From: a virus
IMG/VR virus record: IMGVR_UViG_3300040856_001104
Coordinates: 1 to 25,888 of that record
Length of the DNA: 25,888 bases
Reading direction: 5' to 3' (one strand)
This document shows, piece after piece, positions 1,323 through 22,530 of this stretch; positions within the stretch are counted from its first letter, which is position 1; each line of letters begins with the position of its first letter. A program made the translations under genes and the position numbers. The notes below the pieces were generated by a model. That model made no database searches. It saw only the letters and a list, made by a program, of their open reading frames with translations, and had not been told where the DNA came from.

Positions 1323-1690
1323 TTCTTTCTTTTATATCCTCCACGCTCCCCGATCTCTGCCAGTTCGATGCCGAGCTCCTTTAGCTTGGACGCTGCCCAC
1401 CGCTTCCCTGCCTTGCCTCCCCAGAGGAGGTAGCTGATAGTCCCGCAGGCTTTGGTGTCGCTCTCGTCGTAGTAGGTTTCGGCTCTGTTTAAATAGCTGT
1501 ACATCCGTCGGATCACAGCCTCTGTGATGGGTTTTTTTTGTGCGAGCTGTTGGGCTCTTATCTTCCCGATTTGGGTCGCGCACTTGTTTCCGACCTTCTC
1601 GTTTAGTTCGATCCCTCTCTTCGCGTTGTTGCTTACAGCTTCGGGGTAGTCGTTGTAAGATTCGAGGATTGTCTTCAGCTTTGCCTTCAT
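1319..1690 (-). CDS. Conserved phage protein downstream of the tape measure
   Basis: A 123-residue basic protein starting at an ATG that overlaps the tape-measure stop (ATGA). The central part (NAKRGIELNEKVGNKCATQI, then AQQLAQKKPITEAVIRRMYS, then ISYLLWGGKAGKRWAASKL) matches a short domain I recognise from many phage structural gene clusters: alternating helices, an 'AxxLA...ITxxxIxRM' helix and a 'WGGxxGxxWA' end. No enzymatic motif is visible. It may be a minor virion or head-assembly protein; the biochemical role is unknown. Confidence 0.7.
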   Translation of the reverse strand: MKAKLKTILESYNDYPEAVSNNAKRGIELNEKVGNKCATQIGKIRAQQLAQKKPITEAVIRRMYSYLNRAETYYDESDTKACGTISYLLWGGKAGKRWAASKLKELGIELAEIGERGGYKRKK

Positions 1691-3255
1691 CCGAATGATG
1701 CGTTTCGTTCAATTCTACGATCGAGTGCTTGGTTGTCTGTGATCTCACCGCTCACCACGAAGGCGCGGGTCGGTTTCTTCCCGAACTGGGCGAGCGATCG
1801 CGTGGCCTGCGTCATGGCTTCGTTGCCTCCCAAGATGGAGACGTTCGGGAGGGTGGGCGTAGGCGCCCCCCCTCTGCCTGCGCTTGCTCCTCCACCGCCT
1901 CCGAATCCGTTGGGGACTGGTGTGCTCAAGATGTTGCGCACCTGTGCGAAGCCCGAGGCGAGCGTCAAGCCTGCCGCGATCTGTGGGCCGGGAGGTGGCA
2001 GGGGCGTATTCGCGAGGGCGTTCGTGAATGCCTTGTATGTGTCGATGGTTGCGGAGGCGATGGCTGCGGCCTTCCCTGCTGCGCTCTCTCTTCCGAATAT
2101 CTCCCCGATGACATTCAAGCCAGTCTGTGCGAGGGCGACCCTTGCTTCTGCAAATTGCTCCTCCGTCCTTTGCTTCTGCTTGGCGATCTGCTCCGCGATC
2201 TCGCCCTCCTTGATCTGTTCGTCGATGCGCTCGAGGTGTGCCTTCTTCCGCACCTTGCCCATCTCAATCTGTCGGTCGAGCTCTGCGTTGAAGTTCTCCT
2301 CCATGATAGCCTCGTCCTCTTCCTCCATCGCGATGGCCTCCTTCATGGCCTTGATCTTGTCCTCGATGCTCTGCGTCTGCTGCTGCTCGGCTTTGCTCAA
2401 TGAGTTCAGGCGGGTGATCATCTCCTTCAGTCGCTTGTCCCTGCGCCTCTCAAGGTCGAAGAGTTCAGCCTCGGCTTCCCTCTGCCTCTTGATGTCCTCG
2501 GTCAGGCTCTCGCTCATGGCCACCTCCTCGGCAATAATGCGGGCGCGTTCCCTTGCAATCTCGATCTGCTCGTCTGCTTCTTCCCTCTGGAGGCGTATGG
2601 CTTCGCGGAGTGCTGCGGCCTGCTCCTTCCTGCTCTTCGTTTGGTCTTCAGCGGCAAGCCTTAAATCTTCGATCTGCGCCCTTCTTTTTGCCGAGGTGAG
2701 TATCATCTCCGCCTCCTTCTTTTCGAGCTGGTCTGTGGCTTCTGCGAGGCCGATGGCGAGCTTTGTCTCTCTTTCTATCTCATCGCCCACACCCCTGACG
2801 GCTTCCGCTGCCAGATTCGCGGCCTCCGTGAACTCTCCCCTGAATACCAAAGTGATCGCCTTGCCGAGCATACTGATGCGGTCGATCACGACGTTGATGG
2901 TCGCCCCGATGCCTGCGGTGATCTTGTTGAACATCTCCGCGCCCTCCTGCGTCTTGCTGAACATGGTGGCCAATGAGCCCACAGCGATGACGAGCGCACC
3001 GATGCCCGTGGCTGCGATCGCTCCCTTGAGCGTTGTCATGGCTACGACCCCGCTCTTCGCCCCCTTCACGATGCCCCTGAAGGCTGTCACCGCCCCGCCC
3101 GTCATCTTGTCGAGCTGTCCAGTCAGCCCTTTGGTGGCTGCTGTCGCGTCCTCGGTGGTCTTCTTCGTGTCGTTGAGCTTCCCCTCGAGGTCTTTGATCT
3201 TGCCCTCTGCCGCCTCCGTCCGGGCGATGAGCTCGATGATTACTTCGTTCGCCAT
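1687..3255 (-). CDS. Tail tape measure protein
   Basis: A 522-residue protein that would set tail length and help DNA entry. I start it at the ATG at 3255 (MANEV), which overlaps the preceding small gene by 16 bases; an upstream in-frame start would lie inside that gene. Order of parts: a short N-terminal helix region, a hydrophobic segment at about 70-98 typical of tape measures, a long charged coiled coil at about 155-375, a second alanine-rich helical part, a Gly-rich stretch (GFGGGGGASAGRGG, near 455-470) and a conserved end (FVVSGEITDNQALDRRIERN). It is short for a siphovirus tape measure, suggesting a fairly short tail. Confidence 0.85.
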   Translation of the reverse strand: MANEVIIELIARTEAAEGKIKDLEGKLNDTKKTTEDATAATKGLTGQLDKMTGGAVTAFRGIVKGAKSGVVAMTTLKGAIAATGIGALVIAVGSLATMFSKTQEGAEMFNKITAGIGATINVVIDRISMLGKAITLVFRGEFTEAANLAAEAVRGVGDEIERETKLAIGLAEATDQLEKKEAEMILTSAKRRAQIEDLRLAAEDQTKSRKEQAAALREAIRLQREEADEQIEIARERARIIAEEVAMSESLTEDIKRQREAEAELFDLERRRDKRLKEMITRLNSLSKAEQQQTQSIEDKIKAMKEAIAMEEEDEAIMEENFNAELDRQIEMGKVRKKAHLERIDEQIKEGEIAEQIAKQKQRTEEQFAEARVALAQTGLNVIGEIFGRESAAGKAAAIASATIDTYKAFTNALANTPLPPPGPQIAAGLTLASGFAQVRNILSTPVPNGFGGGGGASAGRGGAPTPTLPNVSILGGNEAMTQATRSLAQFGKKPTRAFVVSGEITDNQALDRRIERNASFG

Positions 3256-3389
3256 GTCATTCTTTTGATTGCCTTCACCGCGCCCCTCCATGTGGTCGGG
3301 AGGTAGTGCCTACCCTTCGCGATGTCGACCTCTTCGCTTATTCCCTTATGCTCCTCCATCTGGAGCAGCTTGATGATTTCTGTGATCAT
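3240..3389 (-). CDS. 49-residue gene between baseplate and tape measure genes
   Basis: The ATG at 3389 overlaps the stop of the 866-residue gene as ATGA, and the 3' end overlaps the tape-measure start by 16 bases, so the unit is translationally coupled at both ends. The product reads MITEIIKLLQMEEHKGISEE and continues with a basic C-terminus (WRGAVKAIKRMTWRTK). No homologue is recognised. The position just ahead of the tape measure is where tail assembly chaperones usually lie, but this protein is much shorter and that role is only a guess. Confidence 0.65.
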   Translation of the reverse strand: MITEIIKLLQMEEHKGISEEVDIAKGRHYLPTTWRGAVKAIKRMTWRTK

Positions 3390-5986: not shown

Positions 5987-7206
5987 ATCGTCACCATGTT
6001 CTTCAGGTCGTTGGCCACCCTGAATGCGAGGGTGTAGTTGACGAGCTTGTTGTTGATGTGCTTCTGCTTCGCCACGTCTCCGCTCGAGGGGATCAGGGGC
6101 ACGATGGTCGTCCCATCGACGAGGAAGACCTTCTCGCTCTGCATCATGTCGGTGATCATCTCCCAGATGTCCTCGGGTTGGTAGCCTGTATTGATGGTGA
6201 TGCTCTCCTGCCCGTTGGCTTCAAAGATGCGCTCTGTGCCTTCGGTGTCGGTGTAGCTCACCGCGAGGGCTGCTGTCGTGAGGTAGCTGTTGTCGAACTC
6301 CCTCCGCTCGAAGGTCGCGCTGTCCTCCCTTGCCTTGAGCGCGGGGATGTAGTCATAAGCCCCGAAGCGATTCAGGAAACCGATGAAGAACTGCGTGTAC
6401 CTATCTGCGCAGGCCACCTCCACGCTCATCCTCCGCTGCTCTGCTGCGCCATCTTTGGCGATGATGGTGTAGGTGTCGTTGTATTGCGTTGCGTAGCTGT
6501 AAACGCAGGAAAACGACTCAACCGTCCCGCTGTCTGCGATGATGTCCTGCCTCCTCTTCTCGAGCGTCTGGCCGTAGAGGTCAGAGCCGAGGAGCACATG
6601 GACGAGGCTCTCGGTGGTTTCGGTCGTGTCCTTCCCTGTCATGTCGATCGCGTAGTCGATGCCGTGCTCCCCCTCGATGACGAGGTTGTCGATCGTGGCA
6701 GTCAGGAAGGAGGTGGTGAACTGGAGGTTGTTCGGGATGACGAGGCCGTCGATGAAGTTGCTCATCGTTGCCCTTGAGCTGTGCGTCGAGTTCACCCCCT
6801 GCGAATACTTGGAGAAGCCACGAACAGCGAGGCGCGTGCCTGAATCTACTGGCGTGGCCGTGCTGTCGTCGCTTGTGTAGGTTGCTGTCACTTGCACCCA
6901 CACAGCCCCCGTCGTGTTGTTGTTCACTTGGCTGCTGTTCGCATTGAGCAGCGCGTCGGGCTCTTCAAAGCCGAGCTGCGACCTGATGAGCTGACTGATG
7001 TCAAAGATGCCCACGTTGTTGCTGTCGGGCAGCTTGGTGAGGGTGTAGGTGGCCGAGCCGGGCTTGTCGCTTGGGTTGTCTCCGCTCCAGATGTAGACCT
7101 CGAGCTTGTACCTGAAGTTGGCCTCGTTGTATGCGCTGTCGCTGATGTGATAGATCACAGGGCTCAAGGCGTAGATCGTGCCTCCGGGCTGTTGGTTGAT
7201 CGTCAT
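5983..7206 (-). CDS. Tail structural protein
   Basis: A 407-residue protein whose ATG at 7206 overlaps the upstream stop, and whose own stop overlaps the next start. It begins with a beta-rich domain (ALSPVIYHISDSAYNEANFR, KLEVYIWSGD) resembling a fibronectin-like fold, and has the segment FLNRFGAYDYIPALKARE near the middle of the C-terminal half, which recurs in Bacteroidetes phage virion proteins. With the 866-residue neighbour it probably forms the tail tip or baseplate. No enzymatic motif is seen. Confidence 0.65.
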   Translation of the reverse strand: MTINQQPGGTIYALSPVIYHISDSAYNEANFRYKLEVYIWSGDNPSDKPGSATYTLTKLPDSNNVGIFDISQLIRSQLGFEEPDALLNANSSQVNNNTTGAVWVQVTATYTSDDSTATPVDSGTRLAVRGFSKYSQGVNSTHSSRATMSNFIDGLVIPNNLQFTTSFLTATIDNLVIEGEHGIDYAIDMTGKDTTETTESLVHVLLGSDLYGQTLEKRRQDIIADSGTVESFSCVYSYATQYNDTYTIIAKDGAAEQRRMSVEVACADRYTQFFIGFLNRFGAYDYIPALKAREDSATFERREFDNSYLTTAALAVSYTDTEGTERIFEANGQESITINTGYQPEDIWEMITDMMQSEKVFLVDGTTIVPLIPSSGDVAKQKHINNKLVNYTLAFRVANDLKNMVTI

Positions 7207-7787
7207 GCTGTCACTTGGTTTCTGATGTCCTCCTCGAAGGCTTCAATAATTTTCTGTTCATACTTATCACGCGCCTGCTCCTCCGGCTCGCTGAAGAAGT
7301 GGGTGGGCTCGATGCCGAACCACTTGATCTTTCTGTTCATCAGGAAGGCCATCGTCTTGATCTGCGTCTTGTTCTTGTCGATCTTGATGAACTGCCCGGT
7401 CGTGAGGTCGCGGGGCTTCACCTTCTTCTCCTCGATCCATCTGTTCATGGCCGAGGGAGGGATGCCCTTCCCCTGCGCCACGCTCTTCATGAATGGGTAG
7501 CGACCCTTGTCGAGATAAAGGCCATAAGACCGCCCCCTGTATTCTATGACGATGCCCTGATCGGTTTCCTTTAGGTCATAGCCGAGGGACTTCTCCAGTG
7601 TTCCAGATGCGGAGCTTTTGCGCTTGCCCTTCTTGAACTCGAAGCTCGTCGGCCTGCCATCCTTCCACTTTGCCCGTACATTGATGCGTTCCCGCTTCTC
7701 GGTGAGGTTGCGCTTCGCTTGCTTGACAACGAAGTCGCCCATCTCTTGGAGCACCGCTTCCAATCTTGGGAATTTAGCAGAGGCCAT
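7203..7787 (-). CDS. HK97 gp10-like neck/tail-completion protein
   Basis: A 194-residue basic protein. The order of an N-terminal helix, a Ser/Gly loop with a leucine-rich helix (ASGTLEKSLGYDL) and a strand ending YGLYLDKGRYPF is the pattern of the HK97 gp10 family, where a strand leads into 'YAxyxExG'. It lies directly after the tail-terminator-like gene with a 14-base overlap, the usual position for this family. A C-terminal helical extension (RDKYEQKIIEAFEED) is longer than in gp10 itself. Family assignment rests on pattern and context. Confidence 0.55.
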   Translation of the reverse strand: MASAKFPRLEAVLQEMGDFVVKQAKRNLTEKRERINVRAKWKDGRPTSFEFKKGKRKSSASGTLEKSLGYDLKETDQGIVIEYRGRSYGLYLDKGRYPFMKSVAQGKGIPPSAMNRWIEEKKVKPRDLTTGQFIKIDKNKTQIKTMAFLMNRKIKWFGIEPTHFFSEPEEQARDKYEQKIIEAFEEDIRNQVTA

Positions 7788-8256: not shown

Positions 8257-8976
8257 TTATTCGTCTTCGTTCGTATTCATCGCGGTCGCTTTCGTAAGCA
8301 AGCCAGAACAGCGCTCGATGAAGCGGTAGTGATGTGATGGAATCAGCTCTTGTAGGGTCTCCGTCGCATAGTCGATGGATCGCTGCAAACCACCCCCACT
8401 TTTTGAGGAAGTTGTCCCCTCCGATGCCTCCGTCGCTTCGAGGTTCAAAGATTTCAGGATATGCATCGATAAGTGTGTTCCGATGCGATAAAAAAAAAGC
8501 AGGGCTGCGATGGCCGTCCCTGCGCTCATCTTTTTGATGACCTCGCTGTCTCCGTCCGCGTTGTATGGCTCGATCTCGTAGCGGTCGCCCATGCTGCGCA
8601 CAATGGGGCGGTAGAGTATGGCCATGATCTTGTCGAGGCTGTCAATGTGGTACTGGTACTTCTCGAGGTCGATGAACTCCCCGAAGGTGATCTCGTCGAG
8701 GTTGGGGTGGAAGCCGTAGTCCTTACCGAAGAGGCTGAAGGCCTGCGTGAACTCGGGCTCTTGGTTCAGCACCTCGGTGATCTGGGCGATGATGGCCTCG
8801 CGGTCTTTGACCTTCATGTCCATCGCGTCGAGCTCGTTGATGCCGCAGAAGTAGGCGAGGGCTTTGACTTGAATGAACTCCTCCTTCGCGTCGGTGTCGA
8901 TGGCCGAGAACTTCATGTAAGCCTCGAGGGTGATGTCCTCCCACGATGTGGGCACAATGACTTTCAGTTCGCGCAT
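8257..8976 (-). CDS. Conserved phage protein at the head of the tail operon
   Basis: A 239-residue acidic, helical protein. I start it at the ATG at 8976; an in-frame GTG at 8982 lies inside the inverted repeat of the leader. Recognisable conserved stretches are LDEITFGEFIDLEKY and YRPIVRSM, which I associate with a family often found in Bacteroidetes phage tail regions. A hydrophobic helix (AIAALLFFYRIGTH) precedes a Ser/Gly-rich low-complexity linker. It is the first gene after promoter 8994-9001. Its role is unknown; a tail assembly factor is possible by position. Confidence 0.65.
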   Translation of the reverse strand: MRELKVIVPTSWEDITLEAYMKFSAIDTDAKEEFIQVKALAYFCGINELDAMDMKVKDREAIIAQITEVLNQEPEFTQAFSLFGKDYGFHPNLDEITFGEFIDLEKYQYHIDSLDKIMAILYRPIVRSMGDRYEIEPYNADGDSEVIKKMSAGTAIAALLFFYRIGTHLSMHILKSLNLEATEASEGTTSSKSGGGLQRSIDYATETLQELIPSHHYRFIERCSGLLTKATAMNTNEDE

Positions 8977-8997
8977 TTGCACAGGGGTATGTGCAAA
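8976..8997. repeat. Perfect 8-bp inverted repeat over the tail-operon leader
   Basis: TTTGCACA (8976-8983) and TGTGCAAA (8990-8997) are exact inverted copies separated by GGGGTA. The right arm overlaps the -7 box, and the left arm touches the ATG at 8976. It could be a repressor operator or an RNA hairpin that hides the start codon. Confidence 0.7.
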
Positions 8998-9001
8998 GAT
9001 A
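8994..9001 (-). promoter_or_regulatory. -7 box of the tail-operon promoter
   Basis: The minus strand reads TATCTTTG, an exact TAnnTTTG box, directly downstream of two terminators and about 17 bases before the ATG at 8976. No clean TTTG is present at the usual upstream distance, which is occupied by the second terminator hairpin. The leader would be very short. Confidence 0.55.
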
Positions 9002-9002
9002 G

Positions 9003-9021
9003 AAAAAGGGGCGTGTGCCCC
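9003..9021 (-). terminator. Second terminator before the tail operon
   Basis: On the minus strand GGGGC-ACAC-GCCCC is followed by TTTTT. It lies right after the terminator at 9029-9050 and ends at the -7 box of the next promoter, so it insulates the tail operon from upstream transcription. Confidence 0.6.
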
Positions 9022-9028
9022 CTTAAAC

Positions 9029-9050
9029 GAAAAAAGCCCCCGGAGGGGCT
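9029..9050 (-). terminator. Terminator of the 60-residue cassette gene
   Basis: On the minus strand AGCCCC-TCCG-GGGGCT is followed by TTTTTTC. It begins 5 bases after the stop codon at 9056. Confidence 0.85.
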
Positions 9051-9055
9051 TGGTT

Positions 9056-9238
9056 TTATTTTGCTTCGAGGTAGTCTTTGCAAGACTTCACCAATTCAGA
9101 GAACTCGCTTTCTTTTCCCTTCAAGGCTTGAATGAATTGCTCGCCAGTCATTCCAATTTTATCAGCCCTCTTCATCATGATTTCCATAGCTCCAAATGTT
9201 GCTGCGATGTCGTTACTTGTGATTTCTTGAGTTGTCAT
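9056..9238 (-). CDS. 60-residue protein of a one-gene cassette
   Basis: The ATG at 9238 gives MTTQEITSNDIAATFGAMEI. An in-frame GTG at 9271 lies where transcription should begin, so it is not used as the start. The product is a small, soluble, helical protein ending FSELVKSCKDYLEAK; no family is recognised. It sits between the large terminase gene and the tail operon with its own promoter (9274-9306), A/C-rich leader and terminator. The base composition is AT-richer than the flanking GC-rich genes. Likely a phage moron; function unknown. Confidence 0.75.
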   Translation of the reverse strand: MTTQEITSNDIAATFGAMEIMMKRADKIGMTGEQFIQALKGKESEFSELVKSCKDYLEAK

Positions 9239-9263
9239 GGTGTTGGTGTTTTGGTTGTTGTTG

Positions 9264-9306
9264 TTTGACACTTCAAATATATGAAACTCTTTTCAACATA
9301 TCCAAA
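9264..9306 (-). promoter_or_regulatory. Cassette promoter P2
   Basis: On the minus strand TTTG (9306-9303) is followed after 21 bases by TATATTTG (9281-9274), then TGTCAAAC. The spacer carries TGTTGAAAAGAGTT, nearly the same as in P3. It drives the 60-residue gene. The minus-strand leader after it is almost free of G and T. Confidence 0.8.
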
Positions 9307-9323
9307 CAAATCGCAAACTTTTT

Positions 9324-10475
9324 TTATCTCAAGTGGTACTTCCCATGATTCGGCTTGCCCACCTTTGAGAAGATCGCGTACCTGCTCGCGTCGATGGCGT
9401 GGTTGAAAGCATCGACTGGCTTGTTCAGGTTGCGCCCGTCTTTGTCCTTCGTCCACTTGTAGTTGCGCAGCTCCTTGATGAGGTTGGTGCTCGAGGGCTC
9501 GACGTGAATCTTGAAGGTCTTCATCAACTGGATGCCCGCGTTCACGCTGTCCTTCCCTTTATCTGCGGGGCGCACGTTCCACCCCATCCTGCGCAGCTCC
9601 TCGATGCTCTTGGGCTCTGCGCTGTCGCAGTAGATGATGTCGCGCCTGTCGATGTTGAGGTTCTTGAGTTCCCTCCCGATGTCTTGGTTGGTCATGTCGG
9701 TGCGGTAGATGCGCTCTCTGATCCAAACGTCATCCCCCTGCGCCCACACCTCCACGAAGGCGGTGGGGTCGTTGGTGAAGCCGAAGTCCATGCCCATGCT
9801 CATCAGCTTCGCCTCCTTCGGGATTTCCTGCTCGTCGAATGTGAATACGTTGTCCCTGCTGATCGCTCGCTCCCCGAGGCCATAGACCTGCCACGCTTGG
9901 GGGTCGGTTTCCTTGAGCCGTTCGATGCGCTGAATGGTGAGGGCATCGAGGAAGGGGTTGTTCCGGTATGTGGACTTGATGAAGTGCGCCCGGGGGATCA
10001 CATCCTCGTAGAGCCAATGGTACTCGTCGGACGGGTTGAAGTCGATGAATATCTGCTCGGTGGTTCGGAGCTCGAGCTGAAGAAAGTCCTCCTTCGCCAG
10101 TTCGTTCGCTTCATTACAGAAGAGGATGTGCCTCTTCGCTCCGCGTTTCTTCTGGGGGTCGTCCATCCCCATAAATTCGAAGCGGTTGCCATTGATGAAG
10201 TAGATGTTGTCCGACTTGTTGTGCAGGCTTTGGTCGTACATCTGCGCCTTCTCCAGTATCTCGAAGAAGTCGCGCATCGCTGTGGAGCGCAAGCTCTTGA
10301 GGGTCTTCCGTGCGATTGTGAAGGTCTTGCCTGTGGTCTGGTGCGCTTTGATGATGAGCACCTGAAGGATCGAGTAGGTCTTCCCCGATCGGCTGCCGCC
10401 CTGATTGACGACGATGGACTCGGTGGCCTCGAGGTTCTTTTTGAACAGGCCGGACGTCTCAAGGCGTGCTTTCAA
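9324..10475 (-). CDS. Terminase large subunit (ATPase and nuclease)
   Basis: A 383-residue DNA-packaging motor of the PBSX-like terminase 3 family. The ATPase has Walker A GGSRSGKT (26-33) and a Walker B-like strand HILFCNEANEL (116-126) with the adjacent acidic residue. The nuclease carries acidic residues in GMDFG (Asp230), YCDSAEP (Asp284) and PVDAFNHAIDASRY (Asp355 and Asp362). The start is the TTG at 10475: it overlaps the small-subunit stop as TTGA, there is an in-frame stop two codons upstream, and Walker A sits at the normal distance from the N-terminus. Confidence 0.95.
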   Translation of the reverse strand: MKARLETSGLFKKNLEATESIVVNQGGSRSGKTYSILQVLIIKAHQTTGKTFTIARKTLKSLRSTAMRDFFEILEKAQMYDQSLHNKSDNIYFINGNRFEFMGMDDPQKKRGAKRHILFCNEANELAKEDFLQLELRTTEQIFIDFNPSDEYHWLYEDVIPRAHFIKSTYRNNPFLDALTIQRIERLKETDPQAWQVYGLGERAISRDNVFTFDEQEIPKEAKLMSMGMDFGFTNDPTAFVEVWAQGDDVWIRERIYRTDMTNQDIGRELKNLNIDRRDIIYCDSAEPKSIEELRRMGWNVRPADKGKDSVNAGIQLMKTFKIHVEPSSTNLIKELRNYKWTKDKDGRNLNKPVDAFNHAIDASRYAIFSKVGKPNHGKYHLR

Positions 10476-10804
10476 AAGTCATCAGCCTCTCGGATCACGA
10501 TCTCGATCTCGTCGATTTTACTCACCTCCTGCTGTATCTGCTGAAGCGGTTGCCCATAGGCTGAATCGAGCAGGGCTTTGTAGGCTGCGACATCTCCGTC
10601 GCGTGCTTTCTTGATGATGGCGAGGGTCATGATGTCCTGCTGCTCGAGCTTCTCCTTCTCCCCTGTGATGGGGTTGGTGATGTACTGGCTCACCTCGAGC
10701 CACTCGCGGGCGATGGTGCTGCGGTTTCGTGAGCCCTTGGGCCTGCCGTTGGGGTTTCGCACTTCGCCTTTTTTGGCGGGTCGGAGGTTCTCGGGGTTCG
10801 GCAT
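10472..10804 (-). CDS. Terminase small subunit-like protein (DUF5681 type)
   Basis: A 110-residue protein with the basic N-terminal motif VRNPNGRPKGSRNRSTIARE (about 15-34) typical of DUF5681-like proteins encoded just before large terminase genes, followed by helices (IMTLAIIKKARDGDVAAYKA) and a short coiled end. It probably binds the packaging site and recruits the large subunit. The stop overlaps the TTG of the large-subunit gene. The start follows the methyltransferase stop by 4 bases. Confidence 0.75.
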   Translation of the reverse strand: MPNPENLRPAKKGEVRNPNGRPKGSRNRSTIAREWLEVSQYITNPITGEKEKLEQQDIMTLAIIKKARDGDVAAYKALLDSAYGQPLQQIQQEVSKIDEIEIVIREADDF

Positions 10805-10808
10805 GGGT

Positions 10809-12011
10809 CTAATTAGTTTCTAAATTCTTGGCCTCGTAGGGTTGGCCGTTGCGCTTGATCTGGAGCGAGGGGTCGAGCTTGTGCATCCTGTCCACGATCA
10901 CTTGGCAGTATTTCGGGTCGAGCTCCATGCCGTAGCACTTGCGCCCGAGCTGGTGAGCTGCCACCATTGTCGAGCCGCTGCCGAGGAAGAGGTCAAGAAT
11001 ATTTTTGGCGTTATGATTTTTTAGGGCGCGTTCTGGCAGCTCGACTGGTTTTTGAGTTGGGTGTAAATCTGTTTTTGAGTCGCGCTTCAATCTCCAAATC
11101 GTTTCTTCATTATTTTCCCCGCACCAATTTCTGTCGTTTCCTTGAGGCAGGAGATAGTAAAACATTTCAAAGCAAGGTTTGTAATTTGCTCCAATGGCTT
11201 GCCCGCCAAACCTCATTTTATCCCATATAAGAGTGTTTATATGCTTTATGTTGTTGTTTTCAATACATCGCAACACTTCAATCTCATTTCCAGCCCCGCA
11301 GAAAACATATAAAGGGCCGACGCTAAACATACACATTATCGGCATGGTCTCCGCGTACAGACTCGCGTCTTTGTCGCCAATAATCCTTTCTCGCTCCTTT
11401 CCTTTTTTTCCTTTTCCGTAGTACATCGTCGAGTTTTGGGAGTGGTAGTCTACTCCGTATGGAGGATCAGTAAACACCATGTCAGCCTGCTCCCCATTCA
11501 TCAGCTTGGACACTTGATCAAAGTCCGTCGAATCCCCGCACAGCAGGCGGTGCTCTCCTATCTCGAAGAGGTCGCCCGGCACGATGTCGGTCTTGATCTC
11601 GTCGGGCACATCGAAGTCGTCCTCCTCTGCCTCGAGCACTTCCTGCATCTCCTCAAAGCCCGGGATGTCGAGCCCCCAGTCTTGCAGCTCCTCCTCGTTC
11701 CACTCATTGGCGAGGGCATCCCAATCCCATTCACCGAAGCCCACGTTGTCCTTGATGATGAACTGCCGCTGCTTGACCTCATCCCACGATGCGATGTAGA
11801 CGGGAGCTTCTTCGACCCCTGCCTCGCGGAGTGCCTTCAGTCTCATGTTGCCACCGAGCACCACCATATCGGGGTTCACGACAACGGGTCGAGCCTCGAG
11901 CATCTCGGGGAACTCCTTGATGGACTTGACAAGCTTCTTGAACTTCTCGTCCCTGATGACCCTCGGGTTGTTGGGGTTCGCCTTGAGCTTATTTACTGGT
12001 AGCCTTTCCAT
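10809..12011 (-). CDS. ParB-fused DNA methyltransferase, beta-class order
   Basis: A 400-residue protein. The N-terminal ParB/Srx-like domain (about 1-90) has VVLGGNMRLKALREAG. The methyltransferase has the catalytic TDPPYG (181-186) before the SAM-binding DLFLGSGST (340-348), so motif IV precedes motif I as in beta-class N4/N6 methyltransferases; PTQKP lies between them. It probably methylates adenine (or N4 of cytosine) in phage or host DNA to escape restriction. I use the ATG at 12011; a TTG at 12020 is also in frame. The DNA encoding about residues 193-338, which includes the target-recognition part, is much more AT-rich than both flanks. Confidence 0.9.
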   Translation of the reverse strand: MERLPVNKLKANPNNPRVIRDEKFKKLVKSIKEFPEMLEARPVVVNPDMVVLGGNMRLKALREAGVEEAPVYIASWDEVKQRQFIIKDNVGFGEWDWDALANEWNEEELQDWGLDIPGFEEMQEVLEAEEDDFDVPDEIKTDIVPGDLFEIGEHRLLCGDSTDFDQVSKLMNGEQADMVFTDPPYGVDYHSQNSTMYYGKGKKGKERERIIGDKDASLYAETMPIMCMFSVGPLYVFCGAGNEIEVLRCIENNNIKHINTLIWDKMRFGGQAIGANYKPCFEMFYYLLPQGNDRNWCGENNEETIWRLKRDSKTDLHPTQKPVELPERALKNHNAKNILDLFLGSGSTMVAAHQLGRKCYGMELDPKYCQVIVDRMHKLDPSLQIKRNGQPYEAKNLETN

Positions 12012-12372
12012 AGGTGTCAAAAATGCGGTCGATATCTCTGATCCACTCGTTCCACTTCTTGGGCGAGCAGGTGCAGGGCTTTGTGAACTTGTGGTGGAAG
12101 AGGTCGGAGTGCATACGCGCCACCATCTCCTGCTCGGGGCTTGTGATCTTCGCGCCTCTGTTCTCCTTGAAGTCCTGCCAGACGGAGTGCTGTGCTCTGT
12201 TCATGCAGGCGGGCTTCTGGTATGGAAAGAGCTCGTTCAGTATCTCCTTGCGCTTGTCGCAGCCGCAGTCGATGCCTGTGGCCTTCGTGAAGCGTTTGAT
12301 GACCTGCTTTATCCCTGTTGCCTCCGTGAGCCTTTCGATCGAATCTCCGAGTCCGGCTGATTTGTTATCCAT
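11989..12372 (-). CDS. Cys-containing conserved phage protein
   Basis: A 127-residue protein beginning MDNKSAGLGDSIERLTEATG. Cysteines at 36 and 38 (DCGCDKRKEILNELFPY), 56, 100 and 102 (KPCTCSPKKWNEWI) are arranged like a zinc-binding site. The pattern GLGDxIExxTxATGI...CGCDKRK recurs in Bacteroidetes phages next to ParB/methyltransferase and terminase genes; I know no function for it. It overlaps the upstream gene by 64 bases and the methyltransferase gene by 23 bases. Confidence 0.7.
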   Translation of the reverse strand: MDNKSAGLGDSIERLTEATGIKQVIKRFTKATGIDCGCDKRKEILNELFPYQKPACMNRAQHSVWQDFKENRGAKITSPEQEMVARMHSDLFHHKFTKPCTCSPKKWNEWIRDIDRIFDTYGKATSK

Positions 12373-13115: not shown

Positions 13116-13474
13116 CTGTTCGTGTGTTGGTTTAGGTAATCGCTGACAATGTTCTGAAACTCCTCGACCGATCTGGCGAGGGCGTAAATATAGCCATGCT
13201 GCTCGACATGGGTCTGCCACGCCTTCTGGTGGTCGGTCTGCCTGCCCTTTGGTGTCTTCATTTCGATACACAGGCCGTGGAAGTCGTGCGAGGGGATGAG
13301 CAGAATGAGGTCGGAGACTCCGGCCACCACGCCCTCGAGCTTCATGCGCTTCGCTGTGGCGATGTTTCGGAAGCCTCCGTTCGGGACGGAGAAGAGGAGC
13401 TTGCGGTGCTGCGGGTACTGCATCCTGAACCACTTGACGCAGGCCATCTGAAGGCGGCTTTCGTCTTGTTTCAT
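13112..13474 (-). CDS. VRR-NUC domain nuclease
   Basis: A 120-residue stand-alone VRR-NUC protein of the PD-(D/E)XK type. Visible motifs are an N-terminal acidic helix (DESRLQ), VPNGGFRN (30-37), AGVSDLILL with Asp55, and the catalytic IEMKTPKG with Glu71 and Lys73, followed by HQKAWQ. Such small phage nucleases are thought to act on branched DNA. The ATG overlaps the upstream stop (ATGA). The C-terminus YLNQHTNR is written in the A/C-rich leader of the next gene. Confidence 0.9.
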   Translation of the reverse strand: MKQDESRLQMACVKWFRMQYPQHRKLLFSVPNGGFRNIATAKRMKLEGVVAGVSDLILLIPSHDFHGLCIEMKTPKGRQTDHQKAWQTHVEQHGYIYALARSVEEFQNIVSDYLNQHTNR

Positions 13475-14202
13475 ACTGGAGAAACTTTTGAGAGGTAGCA
13501 CTTCCGAAAGTAGCTCTCCACGATGTGGCGCATCGTTGCCACTCTGATCCACTCCTCGGCCTTCGTGGGCTCGAGTTTCGCGGCCTTGAGCTCGTCCATG
13601 CGTTTGCGCGCCGCGTTGCGGAGCACTGGGTTGCTGATGCAGTTGGCCGTGTCCTCCATCTCCTTCTCGATCGTGTCCTTCAATGCCTGCCACTTCTCGA
13701 TGGTGGTCATGTCAATCTTGCCCATCTGCTCGAGGTGGTGGTACAATCGCTCCGCACCATACAGCCCCCCTCCGATATTGTAGCGGTCGAAGGCTTTGGT
13801 GATGAACTCCTCCCTGTCGAATGTCTCCTGCGGGAGTGCCTTCTTTGGCTTGATGCTGTGGTCGAACGCCTTCACCCTGATCTCCTTCATGTACGTCTCG
13901 AGCCATTGGGCGAGGGTGCGGGAGCTGAAGAGGTGCTCCTCGTTCCTTCGCGCCCCCTCCCGGAAGGCGATGCTCACCTCCTCGATCGTGAGGATGCGGT
14001 ACTTGGTGCGGAGGTCGTTGGCGATGTCCTCGACTGCTATCTTCAGCACGTCGGGGTCAATCTGTTTTCTCCCCAGTCGGTTGAGTGCTTTCTTCACCTC
14101 ATCGCGCAGGAACGCCCCGAGGTCGTCATCGTTCAGGGAGCTCATCTGCTGCCCTTGTTTTGCCGCTACGATGTCAGCGGTGAGTGGTGCGAGTTGGTTC
14201 AT
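13471..14202 (-). CDS. Unknown protein in the replication cluster
   Basis: A 243-residue, mostly helical protein starting MNQLAPLTADIVAAKQGQQM. The stretch TKYRILTIEEVSIAFREGAR recurs in proteins of Bacteroidetes phages near replication genes. A second half is charged (DTIEKEMEDTANCISNP). No ATPase or nuclease motif is visible. The start and stop both overlap neighbours by 4 bases. It may be a replication or helicase-loading accessory protein, but that is only from context. Confidence 0.65.
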   Translation of the reverse strand: MNQLAPLTADIVAAKQGQQMSSLNDDDLGAFLRDEVKKALNRLGRKQIDPDVLKIAVEDIANDLRTKYRILTIEEVSIAFREGARRNEEHLFSSRTLAQWLETYMKEIRVKAFDHSIKPKKALPQETFDREEFITKAFDRYNIGGGLYGAERLYHHLEQMGKIDMTTIEKWQALKDTIEKEMEDTANCISNPVLRNAARKRMDELKAAKLEPTKAEEWIRVATMRHIVESYFRKCYLSKVSPV

Positions 14203-15089: not shown

Positions 15090-15527
15090 CTACCTTATCC
15101 GCCTGATCGCCACACGATACCGGAAAGAATTGCTCGGATATGGGTGCAGCGGAAGGATCGGCAGCCACTCGCCCCGCCTGCGGCTCATCATGTACGCCTT
15201 GACGGGGATTTCGTTGGATGCGCTCGCCTTGAGCTCCTGCACGCCTAACAATCGCCCCCGGTCGTCTTCGTAGGTCTTGGCCGTCTCGAAGATGCGCCCC
15301 TCGGAGGTTGCCCTGAAGCAGATGTCCTGACTCCTTCCCATCCCCTGAAAGCCGAGGATAGGCTTGTACTTTCTCGCTCTGATATCGCTCATGTGCGCGT
15401 TCTTCATATCGTCGGGGAAGTAGATGAGCACCTCCACCTCGCGGGCGAAGAGGAGCTTCCTGAAGATGTACCACAGCCCCCCGATGTTGCAGAACTTGCG
15501 CTCGGCTTTCTGTCTGATTTCAATCAT
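15090..15527 (-). CDS. Unknown 145-residue basic protein
   Basis: Starts at the ATG at 15527, overlapping the ParB-like gene by 8 bases. The protein begins MIEIRQKAERKFCNIGGLWY and alternates strands and basic turns, ending in an Arg-rich tail (SFRYRVAIRRIR). An ATG-led alternative frame over the same DNA gives an unnatural composition and was rejected. No family recognised; a DNA-associated role would fit the basic charge and the position between ParB-like and replication genes. Confidence 0.65.
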   Translation of the reverse strand: MIEIRQKAERKFCNIGGLWYIFRKLLFAREVEVLIYFPDDMKNAHMSDIRARKYKPILGFQGMGRSQDICFRATSEGRIFETAKTYEDDRGRLLGVQELKASASNEIPVKAYMMSRRRGEWLPILPLHPYPSNSFRYRVAIRRIR

Positions 15528-16332
15528 CGGAGAGGTATTTGAGGGAGACCTTGTTGCGGCTCTTGTAGTTGTAGATGTGCTCGATCAAGTCGATGTATCG
15601 GGATCTGTTTGTGCAGTCCACCATCATGTTGCTGAACTTGCTCAACTTGTCAATGAAGAGCTCTACATCAAAGGCGTCGTGCTTCATTAAGCGTCTTACG
15701 GCACTAATAAAGCTTGATCGATGTGCTCCTTTGTAGTAGGGCTTTATTTCATGCAAGGCTTTAAGTAATCTCGCCACCTCAACCTCTCTTTGTTTGTCAT
15801 GCTTATAAGTTCCACTTTCAAAAAGTGCCTTGCGGGCACTTCCGTTAAAGCCATGAGCTGTCAGAATAACCTCCACACCATTGTGTTCCGAATGCTCTTC
15901 AATGAACCTCAATAATTTAACAAAATGTGGATTCCCCATATCAGCGTGCGCCTTTATATGGTCAATCGTTTGCCACTTTATCATCAGCTTGTTCATCTGC
16001 TGCATCTGACTCAAGGCGTAGCCCCTGACCTTTATGAATCGGATCGGAAGCTCGAGCTGTCTCGCTGCCTCGAAGCGGTGCTGCCCGTCGATGATCTCCA
16101 TCTTCTCGTTCACGATGATGGGGCTCATGAGATACTCCTCCTCCATTGAGGATTTGAGGCGTTCAACGTGGAGCTGTATCACGTCGCGGTTGCCTGCGGC
16201 CTTGTTGAATTGTTGGTAGTCTTTGGTCTGGACTACCTGCGCCACGACTTGATGGTCTTGCGTCGTTGGCTTCTCTTTGGACTTACCTGTAAAGCTGTTC
16301 AAGTAGTCGGTGAAACTGGTCTGTGTGTTCAT
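15520..16332 (-). CDS. ParB-like nuclease-domain protein
   Basis: A 270-residue protein. Residues about 30-105 form a ParB/sulfiredoxin-like domain: a strand region (NRDVIQLHVERLKSSM), then SPIIVNEKMEIIDGQHRFEA with the signature DGQHR at 82-86. The C-terminal half is helical and unassigned. The family includes phage regulators, nucleases and partition-like proteins; the role here is not settled. The ATG at 16332 overlaps the stop of a 38-residue gene, whose 3' end supplies the leader AAACAACAACAACC. Codons from about residue 113 to 230 are clearly AT-richer than the first 110. Confidence 0.8.
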   Translation of the reverse strand: MNTQTSFTDYLNSFTGKSKEKPTTQDHQVVAQVVQTKDYQQFNKAAGNRDVIQLHVERLKSSMEEEYLMSPIIVNEKMEIIDGQHRFEAARQLELPIRFIKVRGYALSQMQQMNKLMIKWQTIDHIKAHADMGNPHFVKLLRFIEEHSEHNGVEVILTAHGFNGSARKALFESGTYKHDKQREVEVARLLKALHEIKPYYKGAHRSSFISAVRRLMKHDAFDVELFIDKLSKFSNMMVDCTNRSRYIDLIEHIYNYKSRNKVSLKYLSDD

Positions 16333-16445
16333 TGGTTGTTGTTGTTTAGGTGTTGATTGATTTCGATGATGGTGCTCCTGACCTCCTTCACGAAGAAGAA
16401 GATCACGGAGCACAGGGCGATGGTCAAAAGGATGGTCTGTATCAT
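16329..16445 (-). CDS. 38-residue single-span membrane micro-protein
   Basis: The ATG at 16445 overlaps the upstream stop as ATGA. The product has a hydrophobic segment at about 4-18 (TILLTIALCSVIFFF) and ends HLNNNNQ; this Asn/Gln tail is simply the A/C-rich leader of the next gene translated. Its TGA overlaps the ParB-like ATG. It is probably real because of coupling on both sides. Function unknown. Confidence 0.6.
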   Translation of the reverse strand: MIQTILLTIALCSVIFFFVKEVRSTIIEINQHLNNNNQ

Positions 16446-16657
16446 GGCGTTTCGAATAGGTTTGCGAATTCAACGAAGTCGAAGCGCACGTTGCCGCCCT
16501 TGATGATCTGCCACACCATGACCGCCTCGAGGATGGTCAGGTGCATGGCGAAGGAGTGGGTGCGCAGGGCAGGGAGCACGATGGTGCTGTTCTCGCTCTT
16601 CTCGACCTTCTGGCGGTCGGTGTCCGAGAGCTTGGACATGAGTGAACGTCTGATCAT
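16442..16657 (-). CDS. Unknown 71-residue protein
   Basis: The ATG at 16657 overlaps the stop of the 140-residue gene (ATGA). The product begins MIRRSLMSKLSDTDRQKVEK and has a hydrophobic helix near the middle (HLTILEAVMVWQII), probably part of a soluble fold. No family recognised. It belongs to a run of small coupled early genes. Confidence 0.65.
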   Translation of the reverse strand: MIRRSLMSKLSDTDRQKVEKSENSTIVLPALRTHSFAMHLTILEAVMVWQIIKGGNVRFDFVEFANLFETP

Positions 16658-20710: not shown

Positions 20711-22530
20711 TAGACGATGTCGAAATAAGTGTTAATGTTGCCCTCGATGAGCGTGCCTCCTCCCGTTGTAACTGTGCCTCGGTTGCTGCTTTGGTCGGAG
20801 TCGAAGAGGATGATTTCTTGAAATGTTCCATCGGGGGAGTTCTTCCCGATTTGTAGCAATGTTGCACTTGTAAACGTGCTCACTGCTTGTGCTACTTGTG
20901 TTCCATTAGCGTAAATGGTTGCGTTCGTGTCATCTTCAATACCCGTTAAAAGCACTTGGCTATCGCTATGCGTTCCACCATTTGCGCTAAATCCTATATC
21001 ATTAAACCGATATTGGTTAGTTCCCCTTCGTCCTAATTCGGGCGAATTTCCAATTAAATATGACCCTGCCTTTGTGTTTTTGTATACTCCGAAGACGCTA
21101 AATCCTGCCGTAATTGGAACGCTGATAGCAAATTCATCATCCACCCCATCAAAGTCAATAGCCGCCTTGCCGTTCTCGGTTACCAATGTCCCCCCACTCA
21201 CTACAAGTGGCTGCTCTGATTCGGTAATCTTGGTCGCATCGTTGCCGTTGCCCGTTTGGTCGTACCAAGTTGTGACCGCTCCGTCTGCGGTGGTTTGGGT
21301 TACGACAATGTTTTTGAGGTAATACACATCTCCATCGGCATCAATACTGCCAATAAATTCACCTACGGCTGCTGCAAACAAAAGTAAATTGCTTGTGCTT
21401 GGACTCCAATTCTGAATTGTTTCAGATTCCCAACTATCAAGAACACTAAATGGATATGCACCATCTGACCCCGTTCCTGTCCGAACTACAATTCCATCTA
21501 TTGTTTGGGGTGTTACTCCGTCAGGTCTTACACTTGGTATGTAGTACTCAAAGGAAACATCGTAAGTATTGGAAAGGTCAAAAGTTCCGTTTTTATATAT
21601 ATAATGAGTATTTGAACCACTTGTCAGAACTGATTGAAGCACATCATCTTTTGAGGTTGTCCCGTCACTTATACCATCCACACTCGATGCGGTTACTCGT
21701 GATTCAATCAACCCATCAATGCCTGATGAAAAATCAGAAGAGTAGGTGTTCACATCCTCATTCACAAAAGTGGTCAGAGCCGTACTATCCAAATCCCCGT
21801 TCGCATCGAAGCCAATATCTTGCTCGGTGTCATCCGATGACCTTCTAACCCGTATGGCGTTGAGCGTTTCGGCCTCTGTGAATTGCCTCAATGAGTAGTA
21901 AGCCGTAACCCCTCCGAAAGCATCCCCGAAGCCGCTATATGCAGGCGCGGGTGCGCTGCCGCTGACCGACGCATCTGTCTTCACATAGTCGCCCGCTGTC
22001 GCTCCCTCGTTCAACATCGCTCCCCAGAACTCAAGCGTCCGGGCGGTGTTGTCGTTGTTCTGGAGGGAGAGATCGTAATCTCCTGCCGTGGTCGTGGTGA
22101 AGGTGTAGCTGAAGCGCGTCCATGAGGTCGTCGCTGTCTTGCTCTCCGCATCTCCGAGCGTCACATTGCGAAGCCTGAAGTTCTGCGTGCCTGTGTTCAC
22201 CTTTGCGTAGATGCTGAAGGTGTACTCCTTGGAAGCTTCAAGCGTGACCCTCTGTTGAAGGCGTGCCTGTCTGTTCGCGCTGAAGTCCACGCGCTCGGCT
22301 GTCGTCCCCCCATTGGGGTCTGTGATGGTATTGGCCGAGACGGTTGGCACGTCCGTGGTGTCGGGTAGCCTGTCCCAGTCGATTGTGTTGTCGAGGTCTT
22401 CCGATCCTTTTAGCAAGTTCAACCCAAAGCCCGGAGGTGCTGAATCGATGAAGAGTGTGTTCGCGCTCCATGCTTTGTCCCCCCACCATGTGGACTTGTA
22501 AATCTCTCCCCAGTTGTTGCTGTTTGCCAT
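20710..22530 (-). CDS. Fibre/spike protein with carbohydrate-binding modules and a split LamG/AbfB domain
   Basis: A 606-residue protein starting at the ATG at 22530 (MANSNNWGEIYKSTWWGDKA); longer starts lie inside the connector gene. Order: a short virion-attachment part, a carbohydrate-binding-like module (about 38-185), the first half of an AbfB/LamG-like domain (207-256, YYSLRQFTEAETLNAIRVRR...DIGFDANGDLDS), a second beta-rich module (about 257-417), then the remainder of the AbfB/LamG domain (418-606, VTTWYDQTGNGNDATKI...IDFDGVDDEFAI). The coding DNA of roughly the last 370 residues is AT-rich. It is a likely receptor-binding protein for host surface glycans. Confidence 0.8.
   Translation of the reverse strand: MANSNNWGEIYKSTWWGDKAWSANTLFIDSAPPGFGLNLLKGSEDLDNTIDWDRLPDTTDVPTVSANTITDPNGGTTAERVDFSANRQARLQQRVTLEASKEYTFSIYAKVNTGTQNFRLRNVTLGDAESKTATTSWTRFSYTFTTTTAGDYDLSLQNNDNTARTLEFWGAMLNEGATAGDYVKTDASVSGSAPAPAYSGFGDAFGGVTAYYSLRQFTEAETLNAIRVRRSSDDTEQDIGFDANGDLDSTALTTFVNEDVNTYSSDFSSGIDGLIESRVTASSVDGISDGTTSKDDVLQSVLTSGSNTHYIYKNGTFDLSNTYDVSFEYYIPSVRPDGVTPQTIDGIVVRTGTGSDGAYPFSVLDSWESETIQNWSPSTSNLLLFAAAVGEFIGSIDADGDVYYLKNIVVTQTTADGAVTTWYDQTGNGNDATKITESEQPLVVSGGTLVTENGKAAIDFDGVDDEFAISVPITAGFSVFGVYKNTKAGSYLIGNSPELGRRGTNQYRFNDIGFSANGGTHSDSQVLLTGIEDDTNATIYANGTQVAQAVSTFTSATLLQIGKNSPDGTFQEIILFDSDQSSNRGTVTTGGGTLIEGNINTYFDIV

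Follow-up and report, generated by a model that had tools for sequence, protein, structure and literature searches.

Exchange of the predicted target-recognition core in a ParB-fused orphan methyltransferase gene of tailed phages

Host restriction genes are known to shuffle their recognition domains. In Type III genes of Helicobacter, recognition domains move at conserved methylase motifs (Furuta and colleagues, PMC3983042), and modular swaps of methyltransferases, also across classes, have been described in Bacteroides prophages, with escape from restriction as the suggested benefit (Tisza et al. 2023, PMC10333322); these and the following articles are cited for the portions available to us. 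Fusions of a ParB-CTPase fold with an N6_N4 methyltransferase are enriched in phages, where anti-defence or phage-host roles have been suggested for them (Kaljevic et al. 2025, PMC12704722), and the Wolbachia phage WO carries an adenine methylase with an N-terminal ParB-like domain (PMC3089641).

Whereas recognition-core exchange was known from host genes, here we describe it, on a large scale, in a phage orphan methylase whose slot can also house other modification chemistries. As far as the available accounts go, the likeness to Type III Mod and Type I HsdS movement lies in the unrelated recognition domains found between near-identical ends in close relatives and, for Type III Mod, also in junctions that fall where conserved methylase motifs are encoded. 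Mod and HsdS, however, belong to the restriction-modification systems of hosts, whereas our enzyme is an orphan from a phage and has a ParB-like domain; unlike in those, its cassette can include motif IV and its slot can hold Mom or TET/JBP genes. The Bacteroides swaps, in the available part of that article (PMC10333322), are at the level of whole genes, while those described here lie inside a gene and have mapped junctions. The ParB-CTPase-fold fusions have the same domain architecture as our protein, and the accessible text of PMC12704722 does not mention core exchange. The methylase of phage WO, which belongs to a different phage group, also shares the architecture and is a distant relative in its core (~31%); no core swap is reported in the portion of PMC3089641 at hand. 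Our literature search, mostly outside subscription journals, retrieved no account of phage methylases exchanging their cores within the gene.

The window, that is, the whole stretch of DNA analysed, is the 25,888-base virus record IMGVR_UViG_3300040856_001104 of IMG/VR. Its minus strand holds, at 10809-12020, a ParB_N and N6_N4 DNA methyltransferase gene of 403 codons counted from a TTG; the ATG at residue 4 (position 12011), where the relatives in contigs L089 and L091 begin, is the likelier start. The protein matches phrog_498 over practically its whole length (residues 4-396, E 3.4e-95) and PF01555 well above the curated cut-off (E 2.7e-22; 80.3 bits against 26.7), and the ParB N-terminal domain scores 25.0 bits against PF02195, whose cut-off is 26.3. 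G57 and R60 of the GxxR P motif are invariant in 17 of 17 aligned sequences. An AF2 model (mean pLDDT 67.3) served for domain identity only, by structure search against the PDB: residues 3-102 resemble ParB N domains (Z ~12; ParB 7bnr, Z 12.4 over 92 residues) and residues 156-383 have CcrM as best structural match (6pbd, Z 15.3 over 203 residues). The order of motifs is that of the beta class, with DPPY at 185-188, the recognition region, HPTQKP at 320 and FLGSGST at 345; we take these motifs to be IV, X and I, respectively. No match to a restriction subunit (Res) was found among the 19 distinct ORFs scanned in the window, which may be an incomplete record. We read the protein as a probable orphan enzyme, a DNA methyltransferase of the beta class that is encoded by a tailed phage and fused to a ParB-like domain.

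The gene occupies a slot flanked on the left by a small conserved phage gene of 127 aa (11989-12372, minus strand; phrog_32048, E 5.5e-9) and on the right by a DUF5681 gene (10472-10804, minus strand; PF18932, E 3.6e-10), a possible small terminase gene that adjoins the gene for the terminase large subunit (9324-10475, minus strand). On the same strand, the methyltransferase gene itself can be divided into a kept N module (11526-12020, residues 1-165), with the ParB-like domain, an acidic linker and the start of the methylase up to GDST; a left junction zone of 69 nt (11457-11525, residues 166-188), which ends in the catalytic motif IV, DPPY; an exchanged core (10992-11456, residues 189-343), with the predicted target-recognition region and motif X (HPTQKP); and a kept C module that begins with the SAM motif I, LFLGSGST (10812-10991, residues 344-403). 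Since AF2 models the core poorly, with pLDDT below 50 at residues 189-218 and 269-307, its predicted role was assigned from motif order and known relatives, not from structure.

Using the terminase as query we found 13 contigs of sister phages with 92-99% terminase identity (L082-L093, and L098 together with L103 as one contig). Around the slot their DNA is ~81-96% identical to that of the window, and the middle of the methylase does not align. The methylase gene was kept in four of the 13 (L082, L084, L090 and L098), and in all four the middle alone diverges: the DNA of the N and C modules matches that of the window at ~91-98% (95.6-97.9% for the C module), whereas the cores are unrelated to the window core, with amino acid identities of 0.14-0.20 and lengths of 166-260 aa against 155 aa. 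The five phages thus carry four core types, with one shared by L082 and L098. Motif IV reads TDPPYG in the window and ADPPYG, NDPPYG or TSPPYN in the sisters, and at the left junction zone homology with the sisters is lost somewhere from ~55 nt ahead of PPY to 14 nt past it. The initial annotation had placed the left boundary just after DPPY and regarded both catalytic ends as native. The boundary is indeed near DPPY and the SAM motif I end is kept; the left junction, however, often lies upstream, up to ~60 nt before DPPY, and motif IV can travel with the core.

The same pattern extends to the wider family. From 145 fetched ORFs with both end modules we kept 130 distinct ones, after dropping 15 that lacked motif IV in place or were exact duplicates. 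Over 8385 pairs, identity in the N module was strongly correlated with identity in the C module (r 0.84), and neither followed the core (N-core r 0.24, C-core r 0.26). Among the 168 pairs with N identity of at least 0.9, core identity was below 0.3 in 121, 0.3-0.5 in 22 and at least 0.5 in 25. Clustering of the 130 gave 75 backbones (N identity 0.9) and 45 core types (core identity 0.5); two or more core types (2 to 8) were found in 16 of the 18 backbones with several members, and 24 of the 45 core types span more than one backbone, a figure that includes plain divergence. The core identity exceeded the N identity by more than 0.15 in 50 pairs.

In 140 pairs with the same backbone and different cores, the 5' edge of homology had a median position of +10 nt from the first PPY codon (5th-95th percentile -55 to +19); for the 3' edge, where homology resumes, the median distance from motif I was 0 nt (-46 to +18). 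Change-point fits for 15 hand-picked pairs from 12 backbones gave -63 to +14 for the left junction and -18 to +63 for the right one. For 22 pairs with the same core and different fronts, many fits were absorbed by gaps at the 5' end, and the left estimates (-567 to +118 nt) are mostly unusable. Junctions of this kind mark edges of homology, and the crossover itself may lie anywhere in the conserved ends; the motifs are where the exchange becomes visible and perhaps, though not certainly, where it happens.

The reverse arrangement, with a shared core behind a different front, was found in a distant phage (L002). Its core is 75% identical to the window core over 154 of 154 residues and the N modules only 39%, whereas typical family members share ~57-73% with the window in the N module and ~24-43% in the core. 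In AU tests on 36 of the 130 sequences, picked for core or N-module similarity to the window and its four sisters, a clade of these five phages was not rejected for the N module (p 0.93) but was rejected for the core (p 3.4e-5, lnL 422 lower). Both trees have long branches, and the free search on the N module missed a better tree that holds the five together. The core tree places the window beside L002, L084 beside L139 and L110, the L082/L098 core beside L175/L177, and L090 in a group to which L154/L158 belong. The clearest case of one core behind two fronts is L055/L079, in which DNA identity climbs from ~42-73% in the fronts to mostly 92-100% in the core, the step falling on the PPY codons, and then fades gradually ahead of motif I.

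The initial annotation had suggested an exchange of sequence specificity by recombination. As to the exchange, neither the four sisters nor L002 match the whole gene evenly: the middles of the sisters do not align and L002 shares the middle, not the front. With the same ends around other cores in the sisters and the same core behind another front in L002, exchange by recombination is well supported. One could imagine that there was no exchange at all and that the region simply evolves fast by point mutations and indels under diversifying selection. No part of a methyltransferase is less conserved than its recognition region, and across distant relatives this alone would leave a variable middle between conserved ends. 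We find a history without exchange highly improbable. The ends of the sisters differ by only ~2-9% in DNA, while their cores share 14-20% of residues and differ in length by up to ~100 aa; identity falls abruptly at the motifs; and neither the core shared with L002 nor the AU result for the core would be expected. That the gene is an assembly chimera of two methylase genes has an even smaller, nearly negligible probability. The record is an IMG/VR contig and conserved motifs would be natural misjoin points, but the reading frame is open across both junctions, in-frame swaps occur at the same places in four further contigs and in the 15 fitted pairs, and in L002 the core runs without a break into DPPY and HPTQKP, at 76% identity.

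Searches for a close donor of the core found none in viral contigs with the core alone (two loci at 43%), in phage records (ten records, best 33%) or in plasmids (three records, best 37%). With an alignment of the window and L002 cores, L002 itself was recovered at 76% and the next reached at most 42% among the matches listed. Because the nearest core, that of L002, is only 75% identical in amino acids, no recent donor is identified.

The exchange had been proposed on account of an AT-rich island in the middle of the gene, with 19 G/C of 60 at 11221-11280 and 37 of 60 at 11641-11700. Both counts are exact and the island is real: the core (10992-11456) has a GC content of 0.424, against ~0.58 on both sides (N module 0.580, the 69-nt stretch up to DPPY 0.478, C module 0.578). 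It exceeds chance: none of 5000 codon shuffles of the gene matched the score of the observed AT-rich segment, and windows of the same size with GC as low as that of the core or lower make up 0.7% of the record. At fourfold-degenerate sites, which exclude amino acid effects, G or C occupies 73 of 94 positions in the ends and 26 of 52 in the core (Fisher p 8.5e-4). At least five other stretches of the record, however, drop to 0.45 or less (e.g., 1-566, 8858-9534 and 20987-21949), so that the dip by itself is unremarkable there.

AT-rich cores are in fact a standing trait of the family. GC3 is lower in the core than in the ends in 121 of the 130 members (mean -0.14; the window is third lowest), and fourfold GC in 122 of 130 (the window ranks 16th). 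In 265 other ORFs of at least 300 aa from the same loci the mean GC3 difference was -0.005, and none reached the -0.334 of the window. The difference remained negative in 32 of 35 members of a thinned set and, when split by fetch source as a check on sampling bias, in 31 of 35 loci retrieved solely with N- or C-module patterns, 79 of 81 viral loci fetched by protein and 10 of 13 loci from bacterial genomes. GC3 of the ends follows that of the phage's own genes more closely (r 0.91) than GC3 of the cores does (r 0.69), and at third codon positions the cores are AT-richer than those other genes as well. The L082/L098 core is equally foreign, yet its GC3 dips only slightly (-0.073 and -0.055). 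The lower core GC3 being family-wide, the dip is a poor clock and cannot date the import in the window; while the dip stands, we dropped GC as sole proof of import, most relatives sharing the same sign.

The trait fits either an origin of the cores from a common AT-rich pool, with amelioration still incomplete, or a faster evolution under weaker codon selection. It is quite conceivable, at slightly less than an even chance, that the dip in the window merely reflects such a standing property of cores and is coincidental to the exchange in this copy, as its recurrence through the family, contrasted with the controls, would suggest. Nevertheless, the window dip is the third largest of 130 in GC3, and the GC of its core is practically that of the L002 core (0.426), although the ends of L002 are at 0.484 and those of the window at 0.579. 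Besides, a circulating AT-rich pool is itself an explanation by exchange.

We consider it probable, at roughly 85%, that the central core (motif IV edge, target-recognition region and motif X) is a recombination cassette swapped in a modification context, re-targeting methylation and evading restriction. Phages with a common ParB module and SAM-binding end swap cores, the junctions falling at the stretches that encode DPPY (motif IV) and FLGSGST (motif I). The ParB domain would be a putative shared carrier that binds DNA or nucleotides. From the position of the core we infer a changed specificity: each core most likely directs methylation to a DNA site of its own, and a swap would re-target the enzyme, alter the methylation pattern of the phage in one step and help it to pass host restriction.

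Escape from restriction is suggested by what sister phages carry in the same place. In nine of the 13 the ParB-like module is kept and the methylase domain is absent. Two of these have Mom-family genes in the place of the methylase domain (L083:649-1335 and L086:1611-2354; PF25680, E 6e-38 and 3.5e-46). Three others (L089, at 6208-7669, L091 and L092) have a TET/JBP-type oxygenase and an FkbM methyltransferase downstream of the ParB module; the family scans were done on the L089 copies, to which those of L091 and L092 have equal match scores. In L093 (908-2529) a TET/JBP-type oxygenase (E 7e-15) adjoins a glycosyltransferase-like gene (phrog_842, E 1e-5; TAGT model, E 0.042, below cut-off). 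The oxygenases and partner genes of L089, L091, L092 and L093 are possible DNA hypermodification sets. No modification gene was found in the slot of the remaining three (L085, L087 and L088), which counts against this reading. Outside the sisters, too, there are ParB modules that lack the methylase domain; they have Mom-like genes nearby in L114, L170 and L178, and TET-like ones in L118, L171 and L184. Mom of phage Mu shields phage DNA against restriction, and TET/JBP-type enzymes act in phage DNA hypermodification. We read the slot as a phage modification slot, probably anti-restriction in function, with indirect support from the lack of a restriction partner among the ORFs scanned, the strong diversification of cores and the replacement by Mom- and TET-type genes.

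Orphan methylases such as CcrM are regulatory. A regulatory role of orphan methylases is also considered in the available part of PMC3089641. Given that CcrM is the best structural match and that the gene stands directly beside the terminase genes, it might instead serve packaging, the timing of replication or gene control by marking the DNA of the phage or of its host, with a specificity that follows the host. This appears unlikely to us: a packaging or regulatory mark would be expected to be conserved in sister phages, which instead show other chemistries or loss.

A wider version of the cassette reading, which we put forward tentatively and regard as rather doubtful, would make this a dedicated, ParB-anchored modification slot beside the terminase genes, in which recognition cores are interchangeable and so are whole chemistries (methylation, Mom-type, and TET/JBP-type with sugar transfer or FkbM). 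Cores would circulate among distant phages as an AT-rich pool, the ParB module would load any enzyme on phage DNA, and the restriction-evasion identity of a phage would change in a single recombination event.

The family provides direct sequence evidence that phages play the same kind of game as host restriction genes, within a single gene for which junctions are mapped and many core types are present. It also offers natural isogenic-like sets, with the same backbone and different cores, for assigning specificity core by core, while best-hit annotation is a poor guide to what such methylases target. The systematic AT-richness of the cores poses a testable question on their origin.

When 26 ORFs of the window were compared with eight sister loci, only the methyltransferase gene and a tape-measure-like gene at 1687-3291 (minus strand) showed a replacement that lies wholly inside an ORF; internal segments of the tape-measure-like gene do not align in L087, L090 and L103. 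A second ParB-like protein is encoded at 15520-16473 (minus strand; phrog_12305, E 6e-36), and nearly all of its gene is replaced in L084 and L090 (~15527-16374 unaligned). A candidate second methylase at 13471-14202 was rejected, as that ORF has no family match; the methylase there is an insertion in L091 (3320-4147, also L092:246-1073; phrog_67, E 2.5e-37), placed near 13471-13475 of the window. In L085 (1793-2314), and likewise in L087 and L088, the sisters whose slot lacks a modification gene, the DUF5681 and terminase genes are separated by an additional ORF that weakly matches a PADLOC model for Type II restriction enzymes (E 8e-5).
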